Positions 32,944 to 53,687 of a DNA stretch of 64,000 bases are shown piece after piece (within the stretch, counting starts at the first letter, position 1; each line of letters begins with the position of its first letter). The position numbers and the translations under genes are program-made. Origin of the DNA: Acidobacteriota bacterium (GTDB taxonomy: Bacteria > Acidobacteriota > Terriglobia > Acidiferrales > UBA7541); the NCBI GenBank assembly GCA_003167215.1, contig PMTV01000015.1:331-64330 (forward strand), given 5' to 3'. The notes under the pieces were generated by a model that worked only from the letters and a program-made list of their open reading frames with translations, had not been told where the DNA came from and made no database searches.

Positions 32944-33375
32944 TTAAGCTCGCGCTGAGCGGCGGTTTGCCCATCGTTGCCGGACTCCGGTCAGGAACTT
33001 CTGCTTGTCGGCACGCATTTGGCGCACGAGCGCTTGATTTTCGGTGTCTTCGTGAGCGGCGGCCCAGAGCACCATTTCCGTGAGGACCGGCGCCAGGGCT
33101 ATTCCTTTCGCGGTCAGTAAGTAGATCAGTTTGCGTCCGTCGGACGGGTCTTTTTCCGTAGTGATAATTCCGTAGGCGACCAGCTTTCGCAGACGGTCCG
33201 CGAGAATGTTCGTGGCGATGCCTTCGTAACAATCCAGGAATTGCTTGTAGCTCCGCGCGCCAGCCAACATCATGTCGCGGATGATGAGGAGCGACCAGCG
33301 ATCGCCCAACATTTCCACGGAAGCATTTAAGGGACACCCCGACCGTCGCTTTGGCCCTGCCTTCCCGCGCCTCAT
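32944..33375 (-). CDS. HxlR-family transcription regulator
   Basis: This 143-residue regulator has the HxlR-type winged helix (about 14-105). The N-terminal cysteine lies in RRSGCPLNASVEMLGDRWS; in several family members it senses oxidants or electrophiles. Other features are LLIIRDMMLAGARSYKQF, the recognition region NILADRLRKLVAYGIITTEK and the wing DGRKLIYLLTAKG. The C-terminal 35 residues are charged. It is divergent from a secreted protein gene, and a perfect inverted repeat lies 18-39 bases before its start. It therefore probably regulates itself and its neighbour. Confidence 0.9.
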   Translation of the reverse strand: MRRGKAGPKRRSGCPLNASVEMLGDRWSLLIIRDMMLAGARSYKQFLDCYEGIATNILADRLRKLVAYGIITTEKDPSDGRKLIYLLTAKGIALAPVLTEMVLWAAAHEDTENQALVRQMRADKQKFLTGVRQRWANRRSARA

Positions 33376-33393
33376 GTTTCCATCCTAAAATAA

Positions 33394-33414
33394 TCACTTG
33401 CATATCACAAGTGA
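33394..33414. promoter_or_regulatory. Probable HxlR operator
   Basis: TCACTTG-N7-CAAGTGA is a perfect inverted repeat in the divergent promoter region, centred about 29 bases before the regulator's ATG. Dimeric winged-helix regulators of this family bind such sites. Confidence 0.6.
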
Positions 33415-33519
33415 CCTTTGCCACACTTTCCGCCACGCTTGACGGCGTAAACAAATGGCCGGCGCGACGGTCATACCCCATCTTGATGGGAGCGGGCTTC
33501 CACTCCTCAGGAGAATTAG

Positions 33520-34236
33520 ATGAAGCGAAAAATGATCAGGACGATTGCGTTGGGAAGTTTCGCGCTAGTTGTGGTGCTGGGCGTGGCATTGCAAGCGCAC
33601 GCACAGGACGCCAAAACACCGTATCCCGCTATGGCGCCGGTTGACCAATACTTGATGGCGGATCGGGATGCCGAGATAGCCCTGGCGCGGAGCGCGGCTC
33701 CGGAATCCATCTCACACGATGCAGAGGTTATGGTCCTCGGGCGGCATGGGTACGAAACCGTGGTGAAAGGCACGAACGGTTTTGTGTGCATGGTTGAAAG
33801 GTCATGGACCGCTCCAATTGACGATCCGAATTTTTGGAATCCCAAGCTGCGTGGTCCCATCTGCTTCAATGCGGCGGCCGCACGAACCTACCTTCCGTTC
33901 ACAATCAAGAAGACCGAGTGGATATTGGCCGGCCAATCCAAAGCTCAAATGTTCGACAGTGTCAAAGCCGCTCTCGACAAGAAAGAATTGCCGATGCAGG
34001 AGCCGGGCGCGATGTGCTACATGCTGTCAAAGCAACAATATTTAGGCGATAGCGCCACCCACTGGCACCCCCACCTGATGTTCTTCGTGCCGCGAACGGA
34101 AGCCGCAACCTGGGGAGCTGATGTGCCGGGGTCCCCGATTCTTTCAGGCGACGACCCTGAGGACCGACTGATGATATTCATGGTCCCCGTCGCCAAGTGG
34201 TCGGACGGTACGGCTGATTCCACAGATAAGCACTGA
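33520..34236 (+). CDS. Exported protein of unknown function, HxlR neighbour
   Basis: The product has 238 residues with a signal peptide (MKRKMIRTIALGSFALVVVLG, cleavage near AHA-QD). The mature part has four cysteines in GFVCMVE, GPICFNA and GAMCYML (and none elsewhere obvious), a His cluster THWHPHLMFF and an acidic C-terminus. There are no membrane segments. GGAGAATTAG precedes the ATG. I do not recognise a named domain. The divergent HxlR gene with a shared operator suggests induction by the same signal. A metal- or redox-linked periplasmic role would fit the His/Cys content but is speculation. Confidence 0.7.
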   Translation: MKRKMIRTIALGSFALVVVLGVALQAHAQDAKTPYPAMAPVDQYLMADRDAEIALARSAAPESISHDAEVMVLGRHGYETVVKGTNGFVCMVERSWTAPIDDPNFWNPKLRGPICFNAAAARTYLPFTIKKTEWILAGQSKAQMFDSVKAALDKKELPMQEPGAMCYMLSKQQYLGDSATHWHPHLMFFVPRTEAATWGADVPGSPILSGDDPEDRLMIFMVPVAKWSDGTADSTDKH

Positions 34237-34765
34237 CGCTGCGTCGCGTGTAAATCGGATACGGCAAGTTCAGTTGCCACGCGCGAGGCTGACAAGGGCG
34301 CGGCGGATTGCGCCGCGAAGGTGGCAGTCGGCGATTCGCCGACTGCACTTGAGGTCAAACTTACAGCGCGGAAGTTTTTGGGGCTGACGCCAATGGGCAC
34401 CGCACAAAGCGCGGTGATGGTGGCAGCCTGAGAACCGGCTGCACGCGAAGCGTGAGACGATGATTCTTCGTTCCCTCAGAATCAGGCGCCAGCGCGGGAT
34501 GCGCGGCGAAGGTAGCTGACGACGAAGCATCGGCTGCAAGTGGAAGAAGCTCTTGTCGGAGCCCTTCGTTGCGCTCAGGATAAACTAAAGGCTCCGACCC
34601 CCAGAAAACCTCGACTCCTTCCGCAACCACGGCGAACGCGGGGAATTTTTTGGTGCTCTCGCCGATGGGCACCGCATAAAGCGCGGTGATGGTAGCAGCC
34701 TACAACCGGCTGCATGCGAAACAACAAACAAAGGTCCCAGGCTGCTCTGGCGCATCCTGACGGCG
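34237..34765. repeat. Hairpin-rich intergenic mosaic with an 80-bp direct repeat
   Basis: This gene-free stretch carries a chain of GC-rich palindromes: CGCGGCG-N5-CGCCGCG (34299-34317) and a perfect 23-base one starting GCAGTCGGCGA (34324-34346). It also has two diverged copies of an ~80-bp unit (34367-34449 and 34641-34720). Each copy contains CACCGC..GCGCGGTG and GCAGCC..GGCTGC stems. Short minus-strand frames through the units repeat peptide pieces (MPIG.S.K.F), but codon use and hairpins argue against coding. Confidence 0.65.
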
Positions 34766-35113
34766 CTAGGCGGCGCGTTCGACTTGGACCGCGGTGCCGT
34801 AGACCAGGACTTCGGTGACGCCTTGCATCAACTCGTTTGAATCGTAGCGCACGCCGATGACGGCATTCGCGCCGTGAGAGCTGGCGTGTTGCATCATCAA
34901 TTCCAGCGCTTGCTCTCGCGTGGTCTCGCACATTTCCTCGAAGAGAGTAATGTTGCCGCCCACGAGCGTTTCCAGCGAAGCGCCGATGGTCCCGAGTATG
35001 CTGCGCGAGCGCACGGTGATTCCGCGCACCAGACCTATGTTCCGCACCACGCGGTATCCCGGCAGCTCAAACGCCGTGGTAACCATGTTTTCGTTCACGC
35101 TTACGTCCATCAT
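34766..35113 (-). CDS. YbjQ/UPF0145-family small protein
   Basis: This 115-residue protein belongs to the YbjQ (DUF74, heavy-metal-binding-like) family, whose structures form ring-shaped pentamers of unknown function. Family features are PGYRVVRNIGLVRGITVRSR (about 18-37), the central LVGGNITLFEEMCETTREQA, then MQHASSHGANAVIGVRYDSN and a final EVLVYGTAVQV. The start is ATG 35113 or the adjacent ATG 35110, both next to AAAGGGGG; the open frame to 35179 is not needed for homology. It is divergent from the helicase gene. Confidence 0.88.
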   Translation of the reverse strand: MMDVSVNENMVTTAFELPGYRVVRNIGLVRGITVRSRSILGTIGASLETLVGGNITLFEEMCETTREQALELMMQHASSHGANAVIGVRYDSNELMQGVTEVLVYGTAVQVERAA

Positions 35114-35193
35114 TCCCCCTTTGTCCTTCGCGTCCTTAGCAGCTCGCAGAATCTTACCCGCGCATCCCGTGCTATCCAATCATCGTTCATCGA

Positions 35194-35215
35194 AGGTTAC
35201 GCGTTTGTGTAACCT
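35194..35215. other. Inverted repeat upstream of the helicase
   Basis: AGGTTAC-N8-GTAACCT is a perfect 7-bp-arm inverted repeat in the divergent region between the YbjQ-like gene and the helicase. It could bind a dimeric regulator. Confidence 0.4.
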
Positions 35216-35276
35216 CCCGATAAGCTCATGGTTTCCCACCCGAATTGCTGAGGACATTTTCGCGGCAGTAACTATA

Positions 35277-35305
35277 TTGACGGTTTTGCAAGCTAAAAGG
35301 ATAAT
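35277..35305 (+). promoter_or_regulatory. Sigma70 promoter of the helicase-nuclease gene
   Basis: TTGACG (35277-35282), a 17-bp spacer and GATAAT (35300-35305) match the consensus at five of six positions each. Transcription would begin near 35312, after the first in-frame ATG (35304), which favours ATG 35334 as start. Confidence 0.6.
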
Positions 35306-35333
35306 GCGAATCTTACTTGATAACGCGTTACTA

Positions 35334-38300
35334 ATGACTAGCTTAAGACCCAACGGCAGTCCTGAACCTCAAGCCCCTGAGGCTTCACCACAACCAAGAA
35401 TCAAAGAGGGTCTCGTCGAGGCACTGACAAGCGCGTATGCGACGTTAATCAAAAGGCAACGCAGTGCCTCTAGCGCATTCGTTCGCTGGTCATCGCAGCA
35501 TGGGCGCGCGCACGAGTTCACGTGGATTGAAGAATCCTCGGAAACTCTAATGTTTGCGGGCCGTGATATTCGCTTTGCTCCCACTAGCCCCTGCCACGAA
35601 TCCATAAACAAAATGATGGCGACGATTGAACTTAACCCATATGAACGCGAACTGCTTTATGGCTATCCGTACATTGTCGGGCAGGTTGATGGAATTCCAA
35701 TTAGGGCTCCGTTGCTTACCATTCCGATCACAATCGCCGCTGACGGTGGAACGCTTTTGGTCCACCCCAACGAAGACATAGTTCGATTCAACTCGTTGCC
35801 CTTCCGCTCAGAGTTTGACACGGCCGCACAGGAGCTAGCCCTTGCCCGCTTGATCGAGGGCACGCCGAATTGTCCATTAACAGCTTCGGCGCTTCGCACG
35901 TTTTGTGAAAGTGTTGCCCGTGAGATGAAAGTGGGTGTAAACGGAAAGCTCGACGGTACCATTGCGTCTCCTCCAACTTTTCCCCGGGCTAATGCGCCTC
36001 TTGGAATTGTTGATAACGCGGCGTGCTTCGTAGCGCCCAAAACGAGCTATTTTCTTTCAAGCGACCTTCAACACATAGGTTCCAACGGCGCCAGTGGAGT
36101 GCAAGAAACTGCGCTTGGATGGCTCATCGGAACTCGGCCCGAGGAGCCGACTGCCGAGACTTTTGCGGACAGTAAAAGGGTCTTTTTCCCCTTCTCTTCC
36201 AATCCGAGCCAACGGCGTGTAGCGCTTCTGGCCAACGACCGGAAAAACAGAATAATAGTGGTGCAAGGACCTCCTGGCACGGGGAAATCCCTCACCATTG
36301 CAAACGTCGCCTGTCACTTAATCGCTTCCGGAAAGCGGGTTCTTATCACTTCCCAGAAGGACAAAGCTCTGGACGTAGTGGATAGTATTCTTCGAAATCT
36401 GAATTTACCTCAGCTTCCACTGACGCTGCTCAAGCAAGACCGTGATTCCAAAAGAGAATTGAAGGAGCGTCTCGAAGAGATTAAGAAAACTGAAGCCGCC
36501 GCAGAAACTCGACGCCAAGTGGAAGACCAGGCAACGGTGTGCAAGAACCTTGATGACGACGTCGAAACCTCGGAGCTATCTCTTGCCAACGCTCTAGTTG
36601 CGGAACATCTCGTCGCACATGCGGATCAAGAATTGACGTCCGCGAAAACGTTCCTTAAGCGTCTTAAAGCTAAGTGGAATTGCGCTCGCTCTAAGCGCTT
36701 GGCCCGGAAGCGTTCGTTACGTCTGTCCGATGACATTGGCGCGGAAACAACCAAGAAGCGTCTTGACCAACTCAGTGCTGCGCTTGCTCTAATTGGTATT
36801 GCAGCAAAGCATCGAACCGGAGAAGCAACGAAGAATGCGAGAAACCAATTGCGCGAATTCTCAAAGCTATTGGGACGTGACCGGGCAAATTACAAAAACT
36901 TCAGAGTGTTCGATCGAATGAAGAGCGAACCCGACCGTTGCCAAATGCTGCTCGGGATTCTGCCGTGTTGGATAATGTCACCAGATGACGTGGCCCGGCT
37001 GTTCCCCTGTCAAGCTGCATTATTTGACACGGTCATAGTTGACGAAGCGTCACAATGTGATCTGCCTTCAATGACGCCAGTTCTTTACCGAGCGAAACAG
37101 GCCATAATTGTTGGGGACGCGAAACAAATGCAGGCGCAACGCTTTGCATTTACCTCAAGTCAAGTCGCAGCGCAGGCTTGGCGGGAACAAGGATTGGATC
37201 ACCTAGATCCGGATGGTTGGTTAGACCCTACCAAGATTGACCTTTTGCAGCTCGCCTCGATTCGAATGGACGAGGAAGCGTTTCTCGACGAACATTACCG
37301 ATCTCTACCACCCATTATCGAATTTTCTAATTCTCGGTGGTACTCAGGAAGATTGCGCATCATGCGTGATCACAATGATAGAAGGTTCGGCGATCCGGGG
37401 GCGGCGACGGTTTCTCTACATAGAATCTCAGCAGGACAGGTTTCGCCCGGAACACAGGAAAATGAGAACGAGGCCATCGCTTTAGTGGATGCTCTCAGAG
37501 CTCAATTGCAACATCCGGGATATTTCGACGCGAGTTTTGGAGTGATTTGTTTATTCGAACAGCAAATGCGCTTGGTAAACGACCTAGTTGCCGAGAGGAT
37601 TCCCGAAGAACTCCGAACCTTCCACGACCTAGTAGTCGTAAATCCTGATGGGTTCCAAGGCGACGAGAGAGATGTGATTTATTACTCTCTGTCATTCGAT
37701 GCCGACGGAATGGATCAGTCGGCATTGTCTGCTCGTCAGGCTGATCGCGCACACATCCAGGGGATGCTAAACGTCGCGTTCACCCGCGCTCGCGACGAAG
37801 TTCATATTTTCCACACTGCAGCGATTGATAAGTTCGGCATGGCCTCGGGTAGCGGCGCAATTCGAGATTGGCTAGAACACTGCGATCACACCACCAAGAA
37901 CTCCACACCGACTAAAAACCCAGTCGAGCAAGCCCAATCGGAGTTCGAAGCGCAAGTCATTCGACAGCTCTCGAGGTGTGGTGTCAAGACCACATCACAA
38001 TACCCAAGCTGCGGATACTTTATCGACATCGTTGCAGAATTAAACGGTGAGCGAATTGCCATTGAATGCGATGGAGAGGTTTGGCACCTAGATGAGCACG
38101 GCAACCTGAAGATCGAGGACCTTCAGCGACAAGAGATTCTGGAGCGAGCTGGCTGGACGGTACTTCGGATACCGTATCGGGGATGGATGGCAAGCCAGGG
38201 TCTGCAACTCGACCGCGTATTTCGGGCCCTGATTCCGCTCAATGAAGAGCCCATATCGGAGCCAGAATCTGAGGTTCTTATAGTTGGGCTCTCGCACACG

Positions 38301-38606
38301 GTAACATCCTACGAAGCGGCTATCATTAAGGCTCTAAAGGACGGCCTGAAGGAACGACAGGCCATCCTCAAGTCCGCCTCAGAACATATGGGCCGCGCCA
38401 GATTAGGCCCCCAGCTCCGTAGGCTTTTAGATGAGGCAGTGTCAAAGCTAGAGATCCGCAAGCTGGTGCTCAATGAGGATAACGAACTGTTCTTAGCCGA
38501 AGACGCGCGGACCGCTACATTCTTGACCCATGATCCTCCATCTCAGTTTCGAAACTGCCAGCAAGGTCGCCGAAGGAGGCGTTACCGCGGTTATCGCCGA
38601 TGGTAG
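35334..38606 (+). CDS. Superfamily 1 helicase fused to a PD-(D/E)XK-like nuclease
   Basis: The product has about 1090 residues. The N-terminal ~290 residues are a family-specific region. The SF1 (DNA2/NAM7, COG1112-like) motor follows. Motif I is VVQGPPGTGKSLT (about 310), motif II is VIVDEASQC, motif III is IIVGDAKQMQ, and later motifs are DGFQGDERDVIYYSLS and LNVAFTRARDEVH. A ~190-residue charged helical insertion (KRELKERLEEIKK...) sits between motifs I and II. Residues about 860-970 resemble the DUF559/MTES_1575 endonuclease: SEFEAQVIRQL, GYFIDIVAEL, AIECDGEVWH, RQEILERAGWTVLRIPY. A winged-helix-like segment and an Arg-rich tail end the protein. Lower-GC codons than neighbours suggest transfer. 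This architecture fits an antiphage or DNA-processing role, which is inference. ATG 35304 is an alternative start. Confidence 0.85.
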   Translation: MTSLRPNGSPEPQAPEASPQPRIKEGLVEALTSAYATLIKRQRSASSAFVRWSSQHGRAHEFTWIEESSETLMFAGRDIRFAPTSPCHESINKMMATIELNPYERELLYGYPYIVGQVDGIPIRAPLLTIPITIAADGGTLLVHPNEDIVRFNSLPFRSEFDTAAQELALARLIEGTPNCPLTASALRTFCESVAREMKVGVNGKLDGTIASPPTFPRANAPLGIVDNAACFVAPKTSYFLSSDLQHIGSNGASGVQETALGWLIGTRPEEPTAETFADSKRVFFPFSSNPSQRRVALLANDRKNRIIVVQGPPGTGKSLTIANVACHLIASGKRVLITSQKDKALDVVDSILRNLNLPQLPLTLLKQDRDSKRELKERLEEIKKTEAAAETRRQVEDQATVCKNLDDDVETSELSLANALVAEHLVAHADQELTSAKTFLKRLKAKWNCARSKRLARKRSLRLSDDIGAETTKKRLDQLSAALALIGIAAKHRTGEATKNARNQLREFSKLLGRDRANYKNFRVFDRMKSEPDRCQMLLGILPCWIMSPDDVARLFPCQAALFDTVIVDEASQCDLPSMTPVLYRAKQAIIVGDAKQMQAQRFAFTSSQVAAQAWREQGLDHLDPDGWLDPTKIDLLQLASIRMDEEAFLDEHYRSLPPIIEFSNSRWYSGRLRIMRDHNDRRFGDPGAATVSLHRISAGQVSPGTQENENEAIALVDALRAQLQHPGYFDASFGVICLFEQQMRLVNDLVAERIPEELRTFHDLVVVNPDGFQGDERDVIYYSLSFDADGMDQSALSARQADRAHIQGMLNVAFTRARDEVHIFHTAAIDKFGMASGSGAIRDWLEHCDHTTKNSTPTKNPVEQAQSEFEAQVIRQLSRCGVKTTSQYPSCGYFIDIVAELNGERIAIECDGEVWHLDEHGNLKIEDLQRQEILERAGWTVLRIPYRGWMASQGLQLDRVFRALIPLNEEPISEPESEVLIVGLSHTVTSYEAAIIKALKDGLKERQAILKSASEHMGRARLGPQLRRLLDEAVSKLEIRKLVLNEDNELFLAEDARTATFLTHDPPSQFRNCQQGRRRRRYRGYRRW

Positions 38607-38658
38607 CGCCAAATCGCGTATTTCAGCTAGCCGCGCGGCGGGTCTACACCCGGGGTAC

Positions 38659-38983
38659 TGTCCTAATTTCCACGGCTAGCAACTTCAACCGAAGCGTGCC
38701 TAGAACTTTCTGCGCTTTGATTCCGGGCGGCCACCTTGCAATGCGGGAACAGAAGTGGGCAGTTCCTTTCTCGACTTCTTGAGGATTTTGTCCGCGCGTG
38801 CGTCAATCAGCTTGCAGAGCATCGCTTTCGCTTCTATAAGTTCCTTGCGTATTGCTTTCCGATCTTCGTCCGTATCCCCTGCTAGGCGCGGTTTCATACA
38901 ATTTTTTTCCGCCGACAACTCTAGCATGAAATAAATGTCAAGGACAGACTTCGATGCAAAGGGGCTAGAGCGAAATTAGGACA
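38659..38983. mobile_element. MITE-like element with perfect 12-bp terminal inverted repeats
   Basis: TGTCCTAATTTC (38659-38670) and its exact complement GAAATTAGGACA (38972-38983) bound a 325-bp segment. Similarity continues inward with small gaps (both ends soon reach CTAGC). No transposase is present; one short minus-strand reading frame lies inside. No clear target duplication is seen at the flanks. It is best read as a small non-autonomous element or a deleted insertion sequence. Confidence 0.5.
38700..38897 (-). CDS. Possible small helical protein inside the inverted-repeat element
   Basis: The frame has 65 codons from ATG 38897 (an alternative ATG is at 38927), preceded by GGCGGA about 10 bases upstream. 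The product is strongly charged and probably helical (DRKAIRKELIEAKAMLCKL, then DARADKILKKSRKE) with a basic tail. No family is recognised. It lies wholly between the 12-bp inverted repeats, so it may be a passenger or a remnant of a transposition gene. Confidence 0.35.
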   Translation of the reverse strand: MKPRLAGDTDEDRKAIRKELIEAKAMLCKLIDARADKILKKSRKELPTSVPALQGGRPESKRRKF

Positions 38984-39139
38984 CGTCCAGACCCGGAAAA
39001 CGGGGCGGAATTTGTTGCTCCATGCTAAAATAAACAAGCGTTCGTTGCTCCTGAAACCTCTCGCAATTCTATCGGGGTTGCAAGATCGCGTTTGCAGCCC
39101 TGTTCGTCTGGCCGCATCGACATAACGAATCGACATAAA

Positions 39140-40975
39140 ATGAACTCAAAACTACGCAATATAGCGATTATCGCGCACGTGGACCACGGCAAGACGACGC
39201 TCGTCGATGCCATGCTGCGGCAAAGCGGAATTTTCAGCACGCACGCTCATCTGGTGGAACGTGTGATGGACTCCAACGACCTGGAGCGCGAGCGCGGGAT
39301 CACGATTCTGGCGAAAAACACCGCGGTGACGTATCACGACACGAAAATTAATATCGTGGACACGCCGGGGCACAGCGATTTCGGCGGAGAAGTGGAACGC
39401 GCGTTGCGCATGGTGGACGGAGTGCTGCTGCTGGTGGACGCGAGCGAAGGGCCGCTGCCGCAGACGCGTTACGTGCTGCAGAAGGCGCTGGCGGCGAAGC
39501 TGCCTCCGATTATCGTGCTGAATAAAATCGATCGGGCGGACGCGCGGCCGGCGGCCGTGTTGGATGAGATTTACGACCTCTTCATCGACCTGGACGCGAC
39601 GGAAGACCAACTCGATTTTCCGGTGCTGTACACCAACGCGAAGACGGGCGTGGCGCATCGCGTGGTGGGCGACTCGTCCACAAACCTGCAGGCGCTGTTT
39701 GAGACTATTGTGGCTTCGACTCCTCCGCCTTCGGGGGATGCCGCGGCGGTGCTGCAAATTCAGGTGACGAATCTAGACTACAGCGACTATCTTGGGCGGC
39801 TGGCGATTGCGCGCGTGTTTTCAGGAACGCTGAAGCGCGGCACGGAAGTGGGCATCGCGAAACTTTCAGGCGTGATTCAGCCGACGAAGATCACGAAATT
39901 GTTTACGTTCCGCGGACTCGAACGCGACGAAGCGGAAGAAGTGGCGGCGGGAGACATCTGCGCCATCGCGGGCGTGGAAGGAATTCAAATCGGCGAAAGC
40001 ATTACGGACCTGGCGAATCCGGCGCCGCTTGAGCCGCTTTTGATCGACGAGCCGACGTTGACCATGGTGTTTACGGTGAATACTTCGCCGTTTGCGGGAC
40101 GCGAAGGGCAATACGTGACTTCGCGCGACCTGCGCGCACGGCTCGACCGCGAATTGCTGACCAACGTTTCGCTGCGCATCGAAGATATGGGCGCGACGGA
40201 TTCGTTTCGCGTGCTGGCTCGCGGAGAACTTCAGCTCGCCATTTTGATTGAGACCATGCGGCGCGAAGGCTACGAGCTGATGGTCGGCAAGCCGGAAATC
40301 GTGGTGCGCACAGAAAACGGAAAGCGCGTGGAGCCGCTGGAAGTGTTGATCGTGGATTGTCCGGAAACTTTTATCGGCATCGTGATGGAAACGCTGGGAA
40401 CGCGGCGCGGCGAAATGGTGAAGATGGTGAACCATCATTCGGGGCGCGTGCGCATGGAGTTTCGCATTCCTTCGCGCGGGCTGATCGGGTTGCGCGGGCA
40501 ATTGCTGACGGATACGCGCGGGACGTCGCTGATTCACTCGATGCTGGACGGCTGGACGGATTACGCGGGGGACATGGCTTCGCGATTGACGGGCGCGCTG
40601 GTGAGCGACCGCACGGGCGTTTCGACGGCGTACGCGGTTTGGGGGATTCAGGAGCGCGGCGAAATGTTTGTGGGGCCGAGCCTGGAAGTGTATGAAGGAA
40701 TGATCGTCGGAGAGAATGCGCGCGAAGACGACATGAACGTCAACATCACGAAAGAAAAGAAGCAGACGAATATGCGGTCGTCGAGCGCGGACGAAGCCAT
40801 ACGGCTGATCCCGCCGCGCGAGTTAACGCTGGAAAAAGCCATCGAATTTATTTCGGACGACGAGTTTGTGGAAGTGACGCCGAAATCCATCCGCCTGCGG
40901 AAGAAAGTTCTGGACGCAAAGAAACGCCCGAAACGCTGGCAGGAGATCAAAGCCAGCGCCGAATCTGCCTCCTGA
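39140..40975 (+). CDS. typA: Ribosome-associated GTPase TypA/BipA
   Basis: This 611-residue translational GTPase related to EF-G acts on the 70S ribosome, in large-subunit assembly and stress or cold adaptation. The G domain shows [17 protein letters not shown] (G1), the switch region [29 protein letters not shown] (G3) and [11 protein letters not shown] (G4). Domains II, III and V and the TypA-specific C-terminal domain follow ([19 protein letters not shown] near residue 535). ATG 39140 is used because homology begins there ([10 protein letters not shown]); the frame is open to 39092. An intrinsic terminator follows. Confidence 0.97.
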
Positions 40976-43361: not shown

Positions 43362-45920
43362 ATGGGGACACTGCTGCAAGACATTCGCTACGGAATCCGG
43401 ATGCTGATCAAGAATCCAGGATTCACCGCGATTGCGGTGCTTACTTTGGCGCTCGGTATTGGCGCGAACACTGCAATCTTCAGCGTGCTGGATTCAGTCT
43501 TGCTGCGCAAGTTGCCGGTGATTCATTCCGAGCAGTTGGTAATACTGACGGACCCTGACTCGCACGGACAATCGTTAGGCAGCGAGGGAGGAGATCGTTC
43601 CCTTCTGGCTTACTCGGAATTTGAATACCTGCGTGACCACAACGAAGTGTTTTCCGGAATCTTCGCTGCCGACAGCAGCCTGCCGGAGGTGCCAGCATCG
43701 TTCAGCGATTCCTCCGCTGGTATAGCTAGCCAGGAAGAATCCCTTCGCGTCCGCCTGGTCAGTGGAGATTATTTTTCCACGCTGGGAGTAACTCCTGCGG
43801 CTGGGCGGATGTTCACCTCTGAAGTGGATCGAGCGCGGGGCGCTTCGCCGTTCGCTGTTGTCAGTTACGCGTGGTGGAAACAGCGTTTTGGCCTGAGTCC
43901 TTCCGTCCTCGGGAAAAGGATCCAAGTTCATCAGACATCATTCGAGATCATCGGCGTCGCGCCGCCGGGGTTTTTCGGTGAAACCGTGGGAGACGCTCCC
44001 GACGCGTGGGTTCCGGCCATGATGCAGGATGCAATCTATCCGGGAAGCGATCTTTTGAGCCCGTCGCAGGGTGAGGTAAACAAACACATATGGCTGCAAG
44101 TAATCGCGCGACTCAAACCGGGCATTACGCCGGAGCAAGCCAAGGCGAGCATCAATGTGGTCCTCCAGCAGATGATTGAATCCAACCTAGGTTCAACGGT
44201 TAGTACGGAAGAGCGCAAAGAATTTTTGGATCAGCGTATCAACCTGCAAACAGGTGCGCGCGGCTCTTCCACGCTGCACGAAGCTTATGGGGAACCACTC
44301 AAGGTTCTGATGGGCTTGGTAGGATTTGTATTACTCATTGCCTGCGCCAACGTGGCGAACCTGCTTCTCGCAAGGGGCACGGCTCGACAAAAAGAATTTG
44401 CGGTGAGGCTCGCCATCGGCGCGGGACGGGGCCGTCTGGTTCGCCAACTTCTGTCGGAAAGCCTTTTGCTGGCGCTCGCGGGCGCAGCCGCGGGACTTCT
44501 GTTGGCGCAATGGGCGGACACGCTTCTTCTACAAATGGTTTCGCGAGCCTCCACCGGGGGTGACGCAGTGCAGGTTAACTTGCGGCCCGACGCTCGCATG
44601 CTGGCATTCACTCTGGGGATTGCCATGCTAAGCGCGATACTTTTCGGGCTTATTCCGGCTCTGCGTGCGACGCGTCTCGATCTGTCGCCAATTCTGAAAT
44701 CAACGGCAGGCGGGACGACGGGCGAAAACGCAGGTCGCCGTCTTCCCGCAACGAAAGTACTGGTAATTGCTCAGGCGGCGATCTCGCTGATCCTGCTTGT
44801 TGCTGCCGGACTGTTCGTTCACAGTCTTTCAAAACTTAGCGAGGTGAACTTAGGTTACAAGCCTGAAAACCTGCTTTTGTTTCGGGTGGATGGCGCTGCG
44901 GGCGGTTATAAAGAGGCTGCAAATCTCCGCTTTCAGCAGGAACTTCTGGAAAAATTCTCGGCTATTCCCGGTGTACGTGCTGCAACGCTTTCGAGCGATG
45001 GGTTGTTTAGCCATTCAGAGTCGGCCGATCCCATCTCCGTGGAAGGCTACACGGCGAAGCCGGGTGAGGAAATCCATTCTCGAATGGATCATGTCGGACC
45101 CGGATATTTCTCAACCGTGGGGATTCCGGTGCTGATCGGACGGGAAATCGCTCGCCAGGACAGCGGCAACGGGCCGCGCGTCGCGGTCATAAACAAGACA
45201 TTCGCGGAACGCTTCTTCGGCAAAACGAATCCGCTGGGCAAAAAAGTGCGCGACACCTATCCAGGAAACCCATCAGAAATGGAAATCGTGGGTGTCGTTG
45301 CTGACGCGAAGTACAACAACTTGCGCGAGAAAACTCCCACGCGGATATACGCGCCATATTTCAATCCCATGCGGGAGCACTCCTACGCCGTTTATGAAGT
45401 CCGCACGTCGGCGAATCCTGCGGACGTGAGCGCGGCGCTGCGGAACGTAGTGAAGGAGACGAACTCGTCTATCCCACCAATTAGAATTAATACGATGCAA
45501 GTACTGGTGGACGATTCGCTCCATACCGACCGGTTTATCGCGAAGCTTGCGGGAGTGTTCGGCTTGCTCGCTATGCTGCTTGCCAGCATCGGACTGTACG
45601 GCATCATGGCGTATACCGTGGCGCGCCGCACCCGAGACATCGGAATTCGCATGGCGCTGGGCGCGCGGCCTGGCAGCGTTCTCTGGCTGATCCTGCGCGA
45701 AACATTGCTTCTGGTTCTTATCGGAGTCGTGGTGGGTTTGCCTTTAGCGTTCGTCGGAACTCATTTGATTAAGAGCATGTTGTTCGGGCTGGGGATGGTG
45801 GACCCTCTCGCAATGATAGTCCCGGCGATGACGCTTGCCGCGGTTGCCGCGTTAGCGGGATTCCTGCCGGCGCGGCGGGCGATGCGCGTGGACCCGATCA
45901 TAGCGCTGCGTTACGAGTAA
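43362..45920 (+). CDS. ADOP-type ABC permease 1 (duplicated MacB/FtsX)
   Basis: This 852-residue protein has two MacB-like modules in tandem, the plan of the acidobacterial duplicated orphan permease family (TIGR03434). Each module has one membrane helix, a periplasmic core domain and three FtsX helices. The first helix is PGFTAIAVLTLALGIGANTA. The first FtsX unit lies about 315-440 (LLIACANVANLLLARGTA), and the second about 735-852, ending with the family tail RRAMRVDPIIALRYE. MacB-like proteins are mechanotransmitters that push substrates from periplasm outward. GGAGAG precedes the ATG. Compared with the other four copies, its first periplasmic domain is slightly longer. Substrate unknown. 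Confidence 0.93.
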   Translation: MGTLLQDIRYGIRMLIKNPGFTAIAVLTLALGIGANTAIFSVLDSVLLRKLPVIHSEQLVILTDPDSHGQSLGSEGGDRSLLAYSEFEYLRDHNEVFSGIFAADSSLPEVPASFSDSSAGIASQEESLRVRLVSGDYFSTLGVTPAAGRMFTSEVDRARGASPFAVVSYAWWKQRFGLSPSVLGKRIQVHQTSFEIIGVAPPGFFGETVGDAPDAWVPAMMQDAIYPGSDLLSPSQGEVNKHIWLQVIARLKPGITPEQAKASINVVLQQMIESNLGSTVSTEERKEFLDQRINLQTGARGSSTLHEAYGEPLKVLMGLVGFVLLIACANVANLLLARGTARQKEFAVRLAIGAGRGRLVRQLLSESLLLALAGAAAGLLLAQWADTLLLQMVSRASTGGDAVQVNLRPDARMLAFTLGIAMLSAILFGLIPALRATRLDLSPILKSTAGGTTGENAGRRLPATKVLVIAQAAISLILLVAAGLFVHSLSKLSEVNLGYKPENLLLFRVDGAAGGYKEAANLRFQQELLEKFSAIPGVRAATLSSDGLFSHSESADPISVEGYTAKPGEEIHSRMDHVGPGYFSTVGIPVLIGREIARQDSGNGPRVAVINKTFAERFFGKTNPLGKKVRDTYPGNPSEMEIVGVVADAKYNNLREKTPTRIYAPYFNPMREHSYAVYEVRTSANPADVSAALRNVVKETNSSIPPIRINTMQVLVDDSLHTDRFIAKLAGVFGLLAMLLASIGLYGIMAYTVARRTRDIGIRMALGARPGSVLWLILRETLLLVLIGVVVGLPLAFVGTHLIKSMLFGLGMVDPLAMIVPAMTLAAVAALAGFLPARRAMRVDPIIALRYE

Positions 45921-45932
45921 CGAGGAGAGAAA

Positions 45933-48380
45933 ATGGGAACACTACTGCAGGACATGCGATACGGAATCCGGGTGCTGATGAAGAATCCGGGATTCACGAT
46001 TATTGCGGTGCTCACGCTGGCGTTGGGGATCGGAGCGAACACGGCGATCTTCTCGGTGGTGAATGCGGAATTGCTGCGGCCGCTGCCTTTCCGCGATTCG
46101 GGAAGGATTGTCAGCGTTGCGACCGGCAATTCGCGCATGCACACCTCGAATGGTTCGACGTCGTATCCCGATTTCGTGGATTGGCGGTCTCAGAATCAGG
46201 TCTTCGAGAAAATGGCGGCTTATACAGGCGCGACTTTCACGCTAACCGGCCAAGAACATCCGGCGCATTTGGAAGGCGCGAGCGTCTCCGCGGAAACGTT
46301 CGATTTACTGGGAGTTTCGCCGGAGCTTGGACGAAACTTTCAGTCGGGAGATGACGGGCCGAATCATCACGTGGTCATCATCAGCGACCAGCTTTGGAAG
46401 CAACAATTCAAAGGCGATCCTGGAATTATCGGCCGCACGATTACGCTCGAGAACGAGGGATATACGGTAGTCGGCGTGATGCCGGCGAATTTCCAGTACC
46501 CGCTGCAGAGAGAACCGGAAGCAATTTGGTCAACGCTTTCGCCGCTGAATGAGACTTCCGACAACTCACCGCCGATGGTGCAGCATCGTGGGGCCCATTT
46601 TCTGACCTGCATAGCGCGGCTAAAACCGGGAGTCACTCTGGCGCAAGCGCAAGCAGCCATGGACGTGATCGCGAGTTCGCTGAGCAAGCAGTACCCCGAC
46701 ACCAACAAATATATGAGCGTGCATTTGAGTTCGGAGGAGGAACGCCTGACAGGGGCGATCCGCCCGGCTTTGCTGGTGATGATGATTGCAGTGGGACTGG
46801 TATTGCTGATCGCCTGCGTGAATGTGGCGAATCTTTTGCTGGCGCGAGCCACAACACGCGGGCGTGAGATTGCGATTCGCACAGCGATGGGCGCCGGGCG
46901 GGTTCGCGTGGTGCGGCAGCTTCTGACCGAAAGTTTATTGCTGGCGATCTTTGCAGGCGTGCTGGGAACGGCGCTTGCGGTTTGGGGAAGCGATGTTCTG
47001 GTCCGCTTGAGTCCCGAGAACCTTCCACGAGTCGGAGAGATTCATATAGATGGTTGGGCGCTGGCGTTCACGGCCAGTCTGTCGCTGCTGACGGGAATTC
47101 TTTTCGGCCTGGCGCCGGCGCTACAGTCAACGCACTCCAATATCGTGGAGGCGCTGAAGGAAGGCTCGTTGAGCACGACCGCGGGACGCAGCCGGCACGG
47201 CTTGCGCAGTTCGCTTGTAATTGTGGAAATGGCGCTGGCGCTAATTCTGCTGGTTAGCGCAGGGCTTTTGATTCGCAGCCTCATCCGGCTGCAAAACGTG
47301 AATCCGGGATTCGATGCACACAACGTTATGACCGCCAGCCTCGATCTTCCGGACGCAAAGTATTCAGATCCGAAGAAGGCGGAATTTTTCCGCGAACTCA
47401 CTCCGCTTTTGAATGCCCTGCCTGGCGTGCAGTCGGCCGCCGCAGTTTTCCCTTTGCCTATGAGTGGAGATGAGATTCGCACGAGTTTCCAGATAGAAGG
47501 GCGGCCGGTAGCGAAGAGCGACGAGCCGCTTACTTCCATTCGCGGGGTTACACCCAATTACTTTGGCACCATGCGAATTCCTTTGTTGCAAGGAAGAGAT
47601 TTCACCGAGCGCGACGAGGCCAAGGCGACACCTGTACTGATTGTGAATCAGGCTTTCGCGCAGCAATTCTTTCCGGGCGAAAACCCGGTCGGCAAGCACA
47701 TTCAGCCGGGGATCTCCAATGGCGGGCCCGGGACGGCGCCGATGCGCGAAATTGTGGGCGTGGTGGGAAACGTAAAGTTTGAAGATCTAACCACGGAGTT
47801 TAGTCCGGAATCCTACATTCCCTTCGGGCAACTTCAGTTCGGGTCGGTAACGATTGTGGCGCGGTCGGCGAAAGATCCACTGGGACTGGCGAAACCGATT
47901 GCGTCGGTGGTGCAGTCACTCGACAAAGATTTGCCCACGTATGCTCCGAAGACGCTCGAACAATATTTGAATGGGACCATCGCGATCCCGCGCTTCAATA
48001 CGTTTCTACTGGCTGTATTTGCGGCGCTGGCGATGATCCTGACCGCGGTGGGCCTCTACGGCGTGATTTCCTATACGGTGGCGCAGCGCACGCATGAGAT
48101 TGGCATACGGATGGCGCTGGGAGCACACCCGGGCGACATGCTGCGATTGGTGGTGCGCCAAGGAATGCGGCTCGCGGCATTTGGGGTAGGGCTTGGTTTG
48201 GTTGCGGCATTCGGATTAACTCGGTTCCTTTCGAGTCTTCTTTTCGGCGTGAGTTCAACGGACCCGGTTTCATTCGCTGCGGTGGTGGTGATGCTTTTCG
48301 TTGTGGTATTGCTGGCTTGTTACCTCCCGGCGCGGCGAGCGATGCGCGTGGATCCGATGGTGGCGCTGAGGTACGAGTAA
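45933..48380 (+). CDS. ADOP-type ABC permease 2
   Basis: This 815-residue paralogue starts 12 bases after permease 1, with GAGGAGAG upstream. The N-terminal 30 residues are nearly the same as in permease 1. The periplasmic domain differs (TSYPDFVDWRSQNQVFEKMA, then HLEGASVSAETFDLLGVSPE), so substrate contacts may differ. The FtsX halves are about 275-400 (CVNVANLLLARATTRGREIA) and 700-815, and the tail is RRAMRVDPMVALRYE. It is translated closely with permease 1. Confidence 0.93.
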   Translation: MGTLLQDMRYGIRVLMKNPGFTIIAVLTLALGIGANTAIFSVVNAELLRPLPFRDSGRIVSVATGNSRMHTSNGSTSYPDFVDWRSQNQVFEKMAAYTGATFTLTGQEHPAHLEGASVSAETFDLLGVSPELGRNFQSGDDGPNHHVVIISDQLWKQQFKGDPGIIGRTITLENEGYTVVGVMPANFQYPLQREPEAIWSTLSPLNETSDNSPPMVQHRGAHFLTCIARLKPGVTLAQAQAAMDVIASSLSKQYPDTNKYMSVHLSSEEERLTGAIRPALLVMMIAVGLVLLIACVNVANLLLARATTRGREIAIRTAMGAGRVRVVRQLLTESLLLAIFAGVLGTALAVWGSDVLVRLSPENLPRVGEIHIDGWALAFTASLSLLTGILFGLAPALQSTHSNIVEALKEGSLSTTAGRSRHGLRSSLVIVEMALALILLVSAGLLIRSLIRLQNVNPGFDAHNVMTASLDLPDAKYSDPKKAEFFRELTPLLNALPGVQSAAAVFPLPMSGDEIRTSFQIEGRPVAKSDEPLTSIRGVTPNYFGTMRIPLLQGRDFTERDEAKATPVLIVNQAFAQQFFPGENPVGKHIQPGISNGGPGTAPMREIVGVVGNVKFEDLTTEFSPESYIPFGQLQFGSVTIVARSAKDPLGLAKPIASVVQSLDKDLPTYAPKTLEQYLNGTIAIPRFNTFLLAVFAALAMILTAVGLYGVISYTVAQRTHEIGIRMALGAHPGDMLRLVVRQGMRLAAFGVGLGLVAAFGLTRFLSSLLFGVSSTDPVSFAAVVVMLFVVVLLACYLPARRAMRVDPMVALRYE

Positions 48381-48401
48381 GGCTGAGACGAGGAGAGATC
48401 G

Positions 48402-50906
48402 ATGGGAGTTTTGCTGCAAGACGCTCGATACGCATTCCGGATGCTGGCGAAGAGCCCGGGGTTCACGCTGGTCGCGATTCTGACACTGGCGTTGGGCATC
48501 GGCGCAAATGCGGCGATATTTTCCGTCACGGATCAGGTTCTTCTGCGGCTATTGCCGGTGCAGAAGCCGGAAGAACTCGTCGTGCTGCGCTCGCCTGGAC
48601 CCAATCCGGGGAGAAACTGGAGCGACGGCGATGTGGGGGTAGCATTTTCATATCCCATGTACAAGGACTTGCGCGATCACAACCCAGTTTTCTCCGGCCT
48701 GCTAGCGCGATTTGCAATTCAGGCAAGCGTCTCCGGCCAGGGCCAAACCGAACTGGCCAATGGCGAACTCGTCAGCGGAAATTATTTTGAGGTTCTTGGC
48801 GTGCGGCCGGCGCTCGGACGCGTTCTCACTTCACGGGATGAAACGGCCGCCGGCGCGAACCCGGAGACGGTGTTGAGTTATGGCTATTGGGAGCGGCATT
48901 TCGGCCGTGATCCCGGGATATTAAACAAACAACTGGTTGTGAACGGCGTTTCCATGACCGTTGTGGGTGTGGTGGCTCCCGGATTTTTTGGAGTGCAGGT
49001 GGGACAGACGCCGGACATTTTCATTCCGGTGACAATGAAGGCGCAGATGACGCCGAACTGGGACGGACTTGCAGACCGAAAAGATCATTGGCTGGCAATG
49101 TTGGGAAGATTGAAACCCGGCATGAGCCTCGCGAAAGCGGAAGCTGGAATCGCGCGGGAATATAGCGCCATCCTGCAGTCGGAAGCCTCGGAGTTGAAAC
49201 TATCGCGGGAAAGAAACAAGCAATTCTTGGACAAGAAAATCCTGCTGGATACGGGATCGCACGGGCGCCCAATCCTGCAGCACGATGCGGGCAAACCGAT
49301 ATGGATTCTGATGTCGATGGTGGGATTGGTGCTGCTGATTGCCTGCGCGAACCTGGCCAGCCTTCTGGTGGCGCGCGGTGAAGCAAGGCAGAGAGAGATC
49401 GCGGTACGCATGGCGATGGGAGCTGGGCGGTGGCGGTTGATACGGCAGCTTCTGACAGAGAGTTTGCTGATTTCGCTGGCAGGAGGAGCCGCAGGGTTGC
49501 TGGTGGGATCGTGGACACTGGGAGCGCTGGTTGGTTCCATACCGGAGAGCCTTGGCGCTTCGGGGTTGCAAGAGAAGTTCGACTATCGAGTGCTTGTGTT
49601 CGCACTGGGGATTTCCATTCTGACCGGACTGCTATTCGGGTTGATACCGGCGCTGCGCTCAACTCACGCGGACTTGCAAAGCACGCTGAGAGAGCAGGGA
49701 GCGAATGTCTTCGGCGGGAAATCGAATGTGCGATTGCGGAAGGCGCTGCTGGTGTCGCAAGTGGCGCTGACGGTGGTGTTGCTGGCGGCTGCGGGATTTT
49801 TTGCGCAAAGCCTGATGAACTTGAAGCGGCAGGACCTTGGCGTGAAGACAGATCACGTAATCCAATTTGCGGTGGCACCGGAACTGAATCGTTATACTCC
49901 GGAACAAACAGTCGCGCTGGCCGACCGCTTGAGAGAAAACATCGCAGGCTTGCCGGGTGTGCGATCGGTGAGCGTGGCGGAAATGACGCTACTCTCGGAG
50001 AGCGACTCGTACGCCAACATCACGGCGGAGGGCTACACCGTGTCGGAAGACACCAATACGGACGTTCAACAAAACTGGATTGGACCAAATTTCTTTGCGA
50101 CTCTGGGAATTCCGCTGTTGTCCGGGCGCGAGTTCGACAATCGCGACACCTCCACTGCGCCTAAAGTCGCAATTGTCAGCGAAAAAATGGCGCAGACGTA
50201 CTTTCGCGGCCAGAACCCGATTGGGCGCCACTTCGCGTTCGGCTCCGGCAATGACGTGCACCCCGACATTGAAATCGTCGGCGTGGTGAAAGACAGCAAG
50301 AATACGGACCTACGGCAAGAAATTCGGCCGCTTGTCTATATTCCTTACAGTCAGGACAAGAATTTCGGAAACGCGACGTTCTACGTGCGCACCAACCTGG
50401 AGCCGACGGCGTTGGGCTCGACACTGCGGAAAACAGTGCAAAGCGCCGATGCAAACCTGCCAGTATTCGAAATGAAGACGCTGGACCGGCAAGTGGACGA
50501 AATTGCGTTTGCTGAACGGCTCCTGACGTTTTTCTCATTGTGTCTGGGACTGCTGGCGGCACTGCTCGCGGCGATTGGGCTGTACGGTGTGATGGCGTAT
50601 ATGGTGGCGCAGCGAACGCGCGAGATCGGAATTCGCATGGCGCTGGGCGCTTCGCAAAAGAACGTGGCGTGGCTGGTGTTGCGCGAAATCGTGCGCATTT
50701 CGATTGCCGGCCTTGGAATCGGGCTGGTGGCAGCATTTGCGATCGGAAAACTGATTGAATCGCAGTTGTTCGGCGTGAAAGCCAGCAATCCGCTGGTGTT
50801 TTTGACGTCAGCGGTGCTGCTCTCAGCGGTTGCGTTACTTGCCGGATGGCTGCCTGCGCGAAAAGCTGCGAGCGTGGATCCCATGGTCGCGCTTCGATAC
50901 GAATGA
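48402..50906 (+). CDS. ADOP-type ABC permease 3
   Basis: This 834-residue paralogue starts 21 bases after permease 2, with GAGGAGAG upstream. It has the usual start (PGFTLVAILTLALGIGANAA) and a first FtsX unit with CANLASLLVARGEARQREIA. Its end is altered to ARKAASVDPMVALRYE rather than RRAMRVDP. The periplasmic domain closest to its N-terminus resembles that of permease 1 (LRDHNPVFSGLLARF versus LRDHNEVFSGIFAAD), suggesting these two are sister copies. A 131-bp gap follows. Confidence 0.93.
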   Translation: MGVLLQDARYAFRMLAKSPGFTLVAILTLALGIGANAAIFSVTDQVLLRLLPVQKPEELVVLRSPGPNPGRNWSDGDVGVAFSYPMYKDLRDHNPVFSGLLARFAIQASVSGQGQTELANGELVSGNYFEVLGVRPALGRVLTSRDETAAGANPETVLSYGYWERHFGRDPGILNKQLVVNGVSMTVVGVVAPGFFGVQVGQTPDIFIPVTMKAQMTPNWDGLADRKDHWLAMLGRLKPGMSLAKAEAGIAREYSAILQSEASELKLSRERNKQFLDKKILLDTGSHGRPILQHDAGKPIWILMSMVGLVLLIACANLASLLVARGEARQREIAVRMAMGAGRWRLIRQLLTESLLISLAGGAAGLLVGSWTLGALVGSIPESLGASGLQEKFDYRVLVFALGISILTGLLFGLIPALRSTHADLQSTLREQGANVFGGKSNVRLRKALLVSQVALTVVLLAAAGFFAQSLMNLKRQDLGVKTDHVIQFAVAPELNRYTPEQTVALADRLRENIAGLPGVRSVSVAEMTLLSESDSYANITAEGYTVSEDTNTDVQQNWIGPNFFATLGIPLLSGREFDNRDTSTAPKVAIVSEKMAQTYFRGQNPIGRHFAFGSGNDVHPDIEIVGVVKDSKNTDLRQEIRPLVYIPYSQDKNFGNATFYVRTNLEPTALGSTLRKTVQSADANLPVFEMKTLDRQVDEIAFAERLLTFFSLCLGLLAALLAAIGLYGVMAYMVAQRTREIGIRMALGASQKNVAWLVLREIVRISIAGLGIGLVAAFAIGKLIESQLFGVKASNPLVFLTSAVLLSAVALLAGWLPARKAASVDPMVALRYE

Positions 50907-51037
50907 TCGAAACCCGACACTGATTCTAGGATCGATCGAGGAACATACGCGGGCGGAATCGCGTATCACAGGACGAAGAGACATCGCATAGAAAAAGTTT
51001 TGCAGGGCTCTGAGACACGAATAACGAGGAGCGGAAC

Positions 51038-53497
51038 ATGGAAACATTGATGCAGGATATTCGCTACGGCGTCCGAATGCTGATGAGGAATCCGGGATTC
51101 ATGATCATTGCCATCATCACCCTGGCGCTCGGTATCGGCGCGAATACTGCCATCTTCAGCATGGTGGATGGAATTTTGCTGCGGCCTCTGCCGGTGCAGG
51201 ATCCCGCCCAGATCACCGTCCTCGCGTTCCAACAGCAGAAAGGAAACATACAGACACAGTTTTCCGTGGCCGACTTTCGCGACATTCGCAGCCAATCCAG
51301 CGAAGTATTCTCCGATGTGTTCGCCTACCAGCTTGGCTTGGACGGTCTGAGCGTGGATGGTAAAGCCGATCGCATCGTGACCAGCTACGTCTCCGGAAAT
51401 TTTTTCCCTGCGCTGGGAATCAAGCCGGAACTCGGTCGATTTATCCTGCCCTCGGAAGGCGAGACCCTGGGAGCCGATCCTGTAATGGTCCTCAGCTACT
51501 CCTACTGGAAGACGCGGTTCGGAGGAGATCCTGCCATCGTAGGCCGCAAAGTTTCGGTGGATGGCCATCCCATCACGATCGTCGGTGTAGCGCCGCGAGG
51601 ATTCGTCGGAATCTTTCCCTTCCTGAGCATTCAGGGGTATTTGCCGCTCGGCATGCTGGAAATTGGAGGCCAGCCGGACGATTTCATGACCAATCGTCAA
51701 CTTCGCAATCTGCCCGTGCTCGGCCGCTTGCGTCCGGGCACCGGACTCCAGGAGGCGCAGGCTTCTCTGTCGGTGATAGGCCGGCGTTTGTCGCAGCAAT
51801 ATCCGGAGGCTGACAAGGATTTGAGCCTTCAGGTCTACCCGGAACTGCGCGCGCGGCCGCAACCCGATCCGGACAATACTTTACTTGTGATCTCGGGGCT
51901 TTTCTTGAGCTTGACGGCGCTTGTGTTGCTGCTCGCCTGTGTAAACGTGGCCAACATTCTGCTCGTGCGTGCTACCGTGCGCGAACGCGAGATGGCCATT
52001 CGCGCCGCCTTGGGTGCCGCGCGATTTCGCCTCGTCCGGCAATTGCTGACCGAAAGTATTCTGCTGGCACTGCTAGGTGGAATCGCGGGAATTTTTCTCG
52101 GCTACTGGGGCAGTTCCGCACTGGCTTCCCTCAATTTTCAGACCGATCTTCCCGTGCATCTCGATTTCGGCTTTGACTGGCGCGTATTTGGCTATGCCAC
52201 GGCGGCCGCGCTGTTGACCGGAATCATCGTCGGCCTGGTGCCCGCAATTCGCGCCTCGCGGGGAAATCTGGCCGCCATCCTGCACGAAGGCGGGCGTGGG
52301 GTTGTGGGCGGCAAAAACCGCTTGCGCACCGGGCTGGTGGTGGCGCAGGTGGCAGGCTCGCTCGTGCTTCTAATCATTGCAGGGCTTTTTACTCGGAGCC
52401 TCGGAAAAGCCCAGAACACGAACCTTGGCTTCGATCCCGACCATGTTCTGAATCTCACCATGGATCCGGTGGAAATCGGATTCAACCAGCAGCAGACGCG
52501 CGATTTTTACAAGAACGTTCTAACCCGCGTTAGTTCCCTTCCCGGAGTGGTGTCAGCGAGCACTGCAACCGCGACGCCCATGGGCTATTACAACAACAAC
52601 GACACGCTGACGATCGAAGGCTATCAGCCGCCCGCCGGCCAGCCGCTTCCGTCTGCCATGTACAACACCATTTCCATAGACTACTTCCGCACCATGCAAA
52701 TCCCCATCCTGCGCGGCAGAGCTTTCACCGACGCTGACAGTGAGAACTCACAGTACGTCGCGATCCTCAGCGAATCTATGGCAAAGAAGTTCTGGCCCGA
52801 CGCAGATCCCATCGGACGGCAATTTCAGATGAGTACCGACGCAAAACATTCGATGGTCGTCGTCGGCGTGGTGAAGGACGTGCGGTACCAGGGTGTCACC
52901 GGTGTGATCCCGCCGGTTTTTTATGCTCCGTTTGTGCAACATCAGTCGGGCAACTCCTTGCAATTTCTTCAGGTGCGTACGACAGCGGCGCCCGAAACAA
53001 TGATCCCGGAAATCGAGCGCACCATCCAATCGCTCGCGCCACAGCTTCCGGTCTTCGACGTAGAAACGATGAGGCAAGCCCTGTACACCCTCAACGGGCT
53101 GCTGATTTATCGGATAGGCGCAGGGCTGGCGGCTGTTCTTGGCGCCTTAGGATTGATTCTCGCAATCGTCGGGGTTTATGGCGTGGTCTCCTATGCCGCC
53201 AGCCAGAAGACGCACGAAATCGGGGTTCGGATGGCGCTGGGAGCGCAGCCCACGGACATCCTGAAGATGGTTTTCGGCGAGGGACTACTCATCGTGGCAA
53301 TGGGTTTGGGTGTGGGAATTGCATTGGCCCTAGCCGCGGCGCAGGTGGTTGGAAAATTCCTGACTGTAAGCGCGATGGACCCGGCGACGTATGTCGCCGT
53401 TTCGGCAATTCTCACAACTGTGGCCCTTGCGGCCTGCTACATTCCGGCGCGGAGGGCTATGCGCGTGGATCCCATGGTGGCGTTGCGCTACGAATAA
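51038..53497 (+). CDS. ADOP-type ABC permease 4
   Basis: This 819-residue paralogue follows a 131-bp gap and has GAGGAGCGG before ATG 51038. The first helix is PGFMIIAIITLALGIGANTA. The periplasmic domain starts VADFRDIRSQSSEVFSDVF. The two FtsX units (about 280-405 and 705-819) are typical and the tail is RRAMRVDPMVALRYE. Codon choice at third positions is richer in C than in permeases 2 and 3, which may reflect a different age or origin of this copy. Confidence 0.93.
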   Translation: METLMQDIRYGVRMLMRNPGFMIIAIITLALGIGANTAIFSMVDGILLRPLPVQDPAQITVLAFQQQKGNIQTQFSVADFRDIRSQSSEVFSDVFAYQLGLDGLSVDGKADRIVTSYVSGNFFPALGIKPELGRFILPSEGETLGADPVMVLSYSYWKTRFGGDPAIVGRKVSVDGHPITIVGVAPRGFVGIFPFLSIQGYLPLGMLEIGGQPDDFMTNRQLRNLPVLGRLRPGTGLQEAQASLSVIGRRLSQQYPEADKDLSLQVYPELRARPQPDPDNTLLVISGLFLSLTALVLLLACVNVANILLVRATVREREMAIRAALGAARFRLVRQLLTESILLALLGGIAGIFLGYWGSSALASLNFQTDLPVHLDFGFDWRVFGYATAAALLTGIIVGLVPAIRASRGNLAAILHEGGRGVVGGKNRLRTGLVVAQVAGSLVLLIIAGLFTRSLGKAQNTNLGFDPDHVLNLTMDPVEIGFNQQQTRDFYKNVLTRVSSLPGVVSASTATATPMGYYNNNDTLTIEGYQPPAGQPLPSAMYNTISIDYFRTMQIPILRGRAFTDADSENSQYVAILSESMAKKFWPDADPIGRQFQMSTDAKHSMVVVGVVKDVRYQGVTGVIPPVFYAPFVQHQSGNSLQFLQVRTTAAPETMIPEIERTIQSLAPQLPVFDVETMRQALYTLNGLLIYRIGAGLAAVLGALGLILAIVGVYGVVSYAASQKTHEIGVRMALGAQPTDILKMVFGEGLLIVAMGLGVGIALALAAAQVVGKFLTVSAMDPATYVAVSAILTTVALAACYIPARRAMRVDPMVALRYE

Positions 53498-53680: not shown

Positions 53681-53687
53681 ACTACAA

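Follow-up and report, generated by a model that had tools for sequence, protein, structure and literature searches.

The locus and its gene

The window, i.e. the whole stretch of 64,000 nucleotides that was analysed, carries a helicase-nuclease gene in the interval between ybjQ and typA (window positions 35180-39137). The gene is one intact ORF of 1090 amino acids plus stop, and is present as a single copy in the host genome. The features of the gene and its surroundings are listed here, with residue numbers (aa) referring to the protein.

35277-35305, plus strand: weak promoter-like TTGACG-17-GATAAT directly before the ORF, matching 10 of 12 consensus positions
35334-38606, plus strand: single helicase-nuclease ORF, 1090 aa; intact reading frame, C-terminal part of the orthologue under purifying selection
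35532-36200, plus strand: pre-motor N-terminal domain, aa ~67-289, with beta strands at 105-145; from the AF2 model, common to compact COG1112 relatives
36198-37808, plus strand: SF1B motor (UPF1/Sen1/IGHMBP2/Dna2-like), aa 289-825; from Pfam AAA_11/AAA_12, Foldseek and motifs
36441-36953, plus strand: enlarged helical insert in RecA1, aa 370-540; AF2 helices
37944-38231, plus strand: MTES_1575/Vsr-like PD-(D/E)XK nuclease, aa 871-966; from Pfam, motif alignment and fold match
38307-38507, plus strand: C-terminal winged helix (wHTH) of the DUF3320-tail type, aa ~992-1058; from AF2 (HHH-EE) and hhalign
38535-38603, plus strand: Arg-rich tail QFRNCQQGRRRRRYRGYRRW, disordered (pLDDT <50) and kept in the orthologue
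38700-38927, minus strand: 75-aa ORF inside a mini-element, with inverted ends on both sides

An in-frame ATG 30 bases upstream, at 35304, is a possible alternative start. We favour 35334 because the promoter-like sequence ends at 35305, with the caveat that sites as good as this one are only slightly above chance in the region (four found, 2.6 expected). An Rfam search of window positions 33000-40000 gave no match. The GC content at third codon positions (GC3) of the ORF is 0.525, compared with 0.658 ± 0.042 in the 28 other window genes, making it the lowest of the 29 tested and placing it 3 s.d. below its neighbours.

Three congeners (L089, L090 and L093) keep ybjQ and typA, with different cargo of 2.5-3.5 kb between them (by eye, an alpha/beta-hydrolase-like ORF, ABC transporter genes and a DinB-like ORF). 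A mini-element of ~330 bp (38653-38986) abuts the 3' side of the helicase-nuclease gene, and its inverted ends (GTCCTAATTTC / GAAATTAGGAC) occur in only two copies genome-wide. The 75-aa ORF that it encloses recurs in genomes G462 and G073 at 72-76% identity, and weakly (38%) in G600, without this helicase beside it in the stretches read from these three genomes; one of the element ends, GGTACTGTCCTAATTT, also recurs in G073 (L116). We therefore rejected this ORF as a partner gene, since in these stretches it travels with the mini-element and not with the helicase. A 64-nt direct repeat downstream of the ybjQ frame (34366-34429 and 34638-34701, 88% identical, 272 bases apart) was rejected as a mobile-element end, as the genome has it nowhere else. 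Further along the window, positions 43362-57366 hold a run of several ORFs of ~815-852 aa that, judging from one of them, appear to be tandem MacB/FtsX-type ABC permeases.

Domain architecture

Pfam searches with the ORF identified AAA_11 (289-601), AAA_12 (646-825), MTES_1575 (871-966, E 7e-18) and DUF559 (874-947, E 4e-6). The full-length AF2 model, built from a 45-sequence alignment, has a mean pLDDT of 74.5 and a pTM of 0.75. The domain that precedes the motor has no Pfam match when aa 1-289 are searched alone. Its identification as DUF4011 is unsupported, there being no Pfam DUF4011 match at E<=1 for the full protein or for aa 1-289, and the same is true of hhalign. It does have relatives: a BLAST alignment to the compact protein L033 covers aa 108-947 (E 1e-36), and hhalign matches aa 69-295 to the L033 group (E 0.002).

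The motor motifs (Walker A GPPGTGKS with K318, DEASQCD, GDAKQ, HYR, FQGDE and NVAFTRAR) are invariant across the 45 homologues. We assign the motor to SF1B because Foldseek matches it to SETX, UPF1, Sen1, IGHMBP2 and Dna2, with E values of 1e-14 to 1e-20; the nearest solved structures are mostly RNA helicases. By analogy with these families, its polarity is probably 5' to 3'. The insert is made up of predicted helices at 370-389, 393-429 and 440-517 (the last split into 440-500 and 503-517), and lies between the Walker A lysine and motif II (DEAS, 570-573), which we take to be the position of domain 1C in UPF1.

The core acidic motif of the nuclease is intact, with D898, E911, D913, H918 and R932 all present in the motif alignment, and the domain retains the DUF559/MTES_1575 motif E-C-D-G...H. 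By fold, it comes closest to NGO0050 (3hrl) and I-Bth0305I (3r3p) at E 0.006-0.02 and probability 1.00, which is support at fold level only. When residues 856-1090 are modelled alone, the nuclease is mostly at pLDDT >90 and is followed by the HHH-EE winged helix at pLDDT ~84-94. The winged helix matches a profile of homologue C-terminal tails (hhalign E 2e-6), with an hmmsearch score above all 2000 shuffles; two of the tails used for this profile have a Pfam DUF3320 call, and the tail under study has none. The final 20 residues are rich in arginine, and the tail of the orthologue in genome G399, RFRNQRHRRSRRYNYPRRF, retains the pattern F-R-N...Q...RR-RR-Y...RR. Such an ending was not seen in the other homologue tails compared.

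The initial annotation had described a COG1112-like motor with a large helical insert, a DUF559/MTES_1575-like nuclease, a winged-helix-like segment and an Arg-rich tail fused in one chain. Each of these parts is recovered here, and the single ORF carries helicase, nuclease, winged helix and tail together.

Distribution and selection

Searching with the C-terminal part of the protein returned hits in two of 399 genomes of the class, and none in the 19 other genomes of the genus, several of which are incomplete assemblies. The second genome, G399, belongs to another family and carries a partial orthologue in a different gene context, 62% identical over aa 747-1089. The homology ends ~50 bases from a contig end, and a stop codon precedes the homologous part by ~15 codons; this copy would thus be either cut by the assembly or truncated. 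Over the 338 codons shared with G399, dN is 0.32 and dS is saturated, so the C-terminal third of the protein (the last 343 residues) has been kept by purifying selection.

No orthologue was found in 346 genomes of another phylum or in 149 genomes of another class, and a scan of the whole genome collection with patterns made from the query alone yielded only a nuclease-level relative. Viral contigs scanned with two alignments held no orthologue; they returned larger relatives and one compact sister (L098). Related motor-nucleases are encoded in 354 plasmid records, none of which covers 80% of the protein.

Taken together, the sporadic distribution, low GC3, orthologue in another family and variable ybjQ-typA interval point to a horizontal acquisition into that interval. 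The hint of transfer in the initial annotation, given on the grounds of lower-GC coding and flanking repeats, holds, as do the GC3 outlier and the mini-element at the 3' side, while the 64-nt repeat proved to be merely local.

Relationship to known systems

In a phylogenetic tree of 45 motor sequences, the query and its G399 orthologue form a long branch of their own (support 100/99). The other clades are a group of nine compact proteins (98/94), one of 22 mostly large sequences, and one of 12 that includes forms with a DUF3320 tail. The profile matches of the query and the tail content suggest that the large clades are of the ProA/PDC-S37 and Hhe types. The nine compact COG1112 proteins (L028-L033, L059, L064 and L098) resemble the query in being ~930-1200 aa long and in having a pre-motor domain, motor and nuclease (in some, a degenerate or split nuclease). 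They differ in forming a separate clade and lacking both the C-terminal wHTH and the Arg-rich tail; unlike the query, some have a wHTH-like or Cys-rich N-terminal segment.

The best PADLOC match is the candidate system PDC-S37 (245 bits), with Hhe at 133 bits. The corresponding NCBIfam scores are 275 bits for ProA (NF058533) and 189 bits for Hhe (NF042953), far under the cut-offs of 1500 and 2000 bits (equivalog), respectively. ProA and Hhe share the motor and MTES_1575 nuclease module with the query, and in Hhe the succession of SF1 motor and MTES_1575/Vsr-like nuclease aligns from aa 536-981 to profile positions 1254-1698. However, the query lacks DUF4011, and has 1090 aa compared with 1903 and 1797 model positions. 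For PDC-S37 (1550 positions), the motor half and nuclease align (aa 475-967 to profile 855-1339), but this best stretch is about one third of the profile, and the query branches apart from the large forms. Given these scores and this coverage, the protein, which is ~30-45% shorter than Hhe, ProA and PDC-S37, is on sequence grounds related to all three but a member of none. Our literature search found no account of PDC-S37 and no open paper detailing Hhe.

The initial annotation had supposed that the domain order might be undescribed. This was not borne out: the order of motor, MTES_1575/Vsr-like nuclease and wHTH (DUF3320) was published in 2013 for giant HEPN and transglutaminase proteins, proposed to act by modification-independent restriction on DNA that invades the cell, with no modification partner (Anantharaman et al. 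2013, PMC3710099), and the motor-nuclease module is also present in Hhe, ProA and PDC-S37. The query differs from the giant proteins in having no Pfam match to HEPN or transglutaminase, one wHTH rather than two, and the additional Arg-rich tail. Mokosh type II, previously offered as a comparison, is a poor one. MkoA and MkoC share the COG1112-like SF1 motor (62-104 bits), but the known nuclease of type II is of the PLD type, whereas the query has no PLD match in Pfam and an MTES_1575 nuclease; membership of Mokosh was rejected, the match being confined to the motor. What is unusual in the query, as judged from these comparisons, is its compact form, separate lineage and Arg-rich tail, and it is best described as a small and divergent relative of the antiphage helicase-nucleases already known.

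Gene neighbourhoods

PADLOC found no match among the ten neighbours of the query, and so no defence gene at the locus. The visible flank of the G399 orthologue also holds no defence genes (by eye, it encodes a TonB-type protein, a GMC-type oxidoreductase and a small subunit-like ORF). Among loci that were picked by hand, without a background rate, L031 of the sister compact clade adjoins HsdS and HsdR of type I restriction, L064 is near AbiEi and PemK, and L098 adjoins a Fic protein matching SoFic, and the relative in L111 is near a PsyrT-like phosphoribosyltransferase. In the same hand-picked set, the compact relatives L028, L030, L032 and L033 have ordinary-looking neighbours.

Proposed function and alternatives

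We consider the gene to encode a stand-alone, horizontally acquired defence enzyme, in which a single protein would use its helicase to power the cutting of foreign or aberrant DNA, independently of modification (probability roughly 0.55). The wHTH and Arg-rich tail would anchor the protein on nucleic acid, and the SF1B motor would load onto single-stranded or damaged/replicating DNA, probably moving 5' to 3'. ATP-driven translocation or remodelling may then license the attached Vsr-like nuclease to nick or cut the foreign or aberrant DNA. This reading is suggested by the best profile matches, all to defence or candidate-defence proteins (PDC-S37, Hhe and ProA), and, by analogy, by the HsdS/HsdR, AbiEi and PemK, and Fic neighbours of the sister compact proteins and the restriction proposed for the same module (PMC3710099). 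It is also in agreement with the intact nuclease motif, the rarity of the gene (2/399), the selection on an orthologue in another family and the outlying GC3. Against it stand the lack of defence genes at the query locus and the G399 flank, the ordinary neighbours of four compact relatives, and the predominance of RNA helicases among the nearest solved relatives of the motor. A narrower proposal is tentative: that the query and its orthologue form a separate lineage of minimal, single-chain helicase-nucleases for defence (~1090 aa sensor-motor-nuclease), with the conserved Arg-rich tail and one wHTH in place of the large N-terminal sensor modules of the Hhe/ProA type.

Restriction by a single protein has two main rivals, a repair helicase-nuclease and an RNA-directed enzyme, each of which we regard as unlikely. 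In the former, the protein would be a Dna2-like or RecD2-like accessory in DNA repair, recombination or at the replication fork, not dedicated to defence. The presence of Dna2 among the structural neighbours, the Dna2-like joining of an SF1B motor and a nuclease in one chain and the absence of defence genes nearby are consistent with this, but core repair genes are not limited to one of 20 congeners, and the profiles matched best belong to antiphage or candidate families. Moreover, the Dna2 nuclease differs in group and position, being Cas4/RecB-like and N-terminal to the motor. In the latter, a UPF1-like RNA translocase with a PD-(D/E)XK domain and Arg-rich tail would act on RNA or ribosomes in defence or stress. 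The top structural matches UPF1, Sen1 and SETX, a weak match of the nuclease region to the RNA-linked domain RAP (E 9e-4, under the Pfam curated cut-off) and the resemblance of the tail sequence to RNA-binding Arg-rich segments all argue for it. On the other hand, DNA endonucleases or endonuclease-like proteins (3hrl and 3r3p) are the nearest structural matches to the nuclease, which has kept the E-C-D-G...H motif, and a wHTH is usually a dsDNA binder.

Somewhat less probable again is that the gene is selfish or mobile-element-linked cargo, or acts against plasmids or other elements rather than phages. The low GC3, patchy distribution, abutting mini-element and 354 plasmid records would fit; yet other genomes carry the mini-element without this gene, neither an integrase nor a transposase was noticed next to the ORF, and no plasmid match covers 80% of the protein. 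That it is a decaying or non-functional acquisition is very improbable: the sole orthologue is truncated at a contig end and has a stop codon before its homologous part, but the query has an intact ORF with all motor motifs and the nuclease acidic motif, and purifying selection between the two copies is strong.

Hhe/ProA-type proteins are very large, and a natural relative of 1090 aa that unites motor, nuclease and DNA-binding domain in a single chain would be tractable for studying how a Vsr-like nuclease is gated by an SF1B motor when no DNA modification is involved. No solved structure combining a motor with an MTES_1575-type nuclease is among the best PDB matches. The query also shows that selection maintains the module even where the HEPN, transglutaminase or DUF4011 parts found in the larger forms are missing.

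Variation among compact and larger relatives

By eye, the N-termini of L031, L032 and L098 look winged-helix-like, and those of L033 and L064 Cys-rich and zinc-ribbon-like; these may be alternative front ends on the same motor. Three compact relatives from one family (L028:10577-10915, L029:330-671 and L030:8832-9161) carry a degraded nuclease motif, with E911 replaced by D, D913 by V or I and H918 by P, and intact motor motifs, which suggests a nuclease-dead, motor-only version. In L032:7483-10868 (genome G155), the two halves of the fusion are matched by a 1038-aa helicase and by a distinct 112-aa ORF that overlaps it, which would represent either a nuclease encoded as its own gene or a frameshift. 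In a 1752-aa relative, L034:5017-10272, the nuclease is followed by a zinc finger of the DksA/TraR type (PF01258, 43 bits) at the end of the protein.
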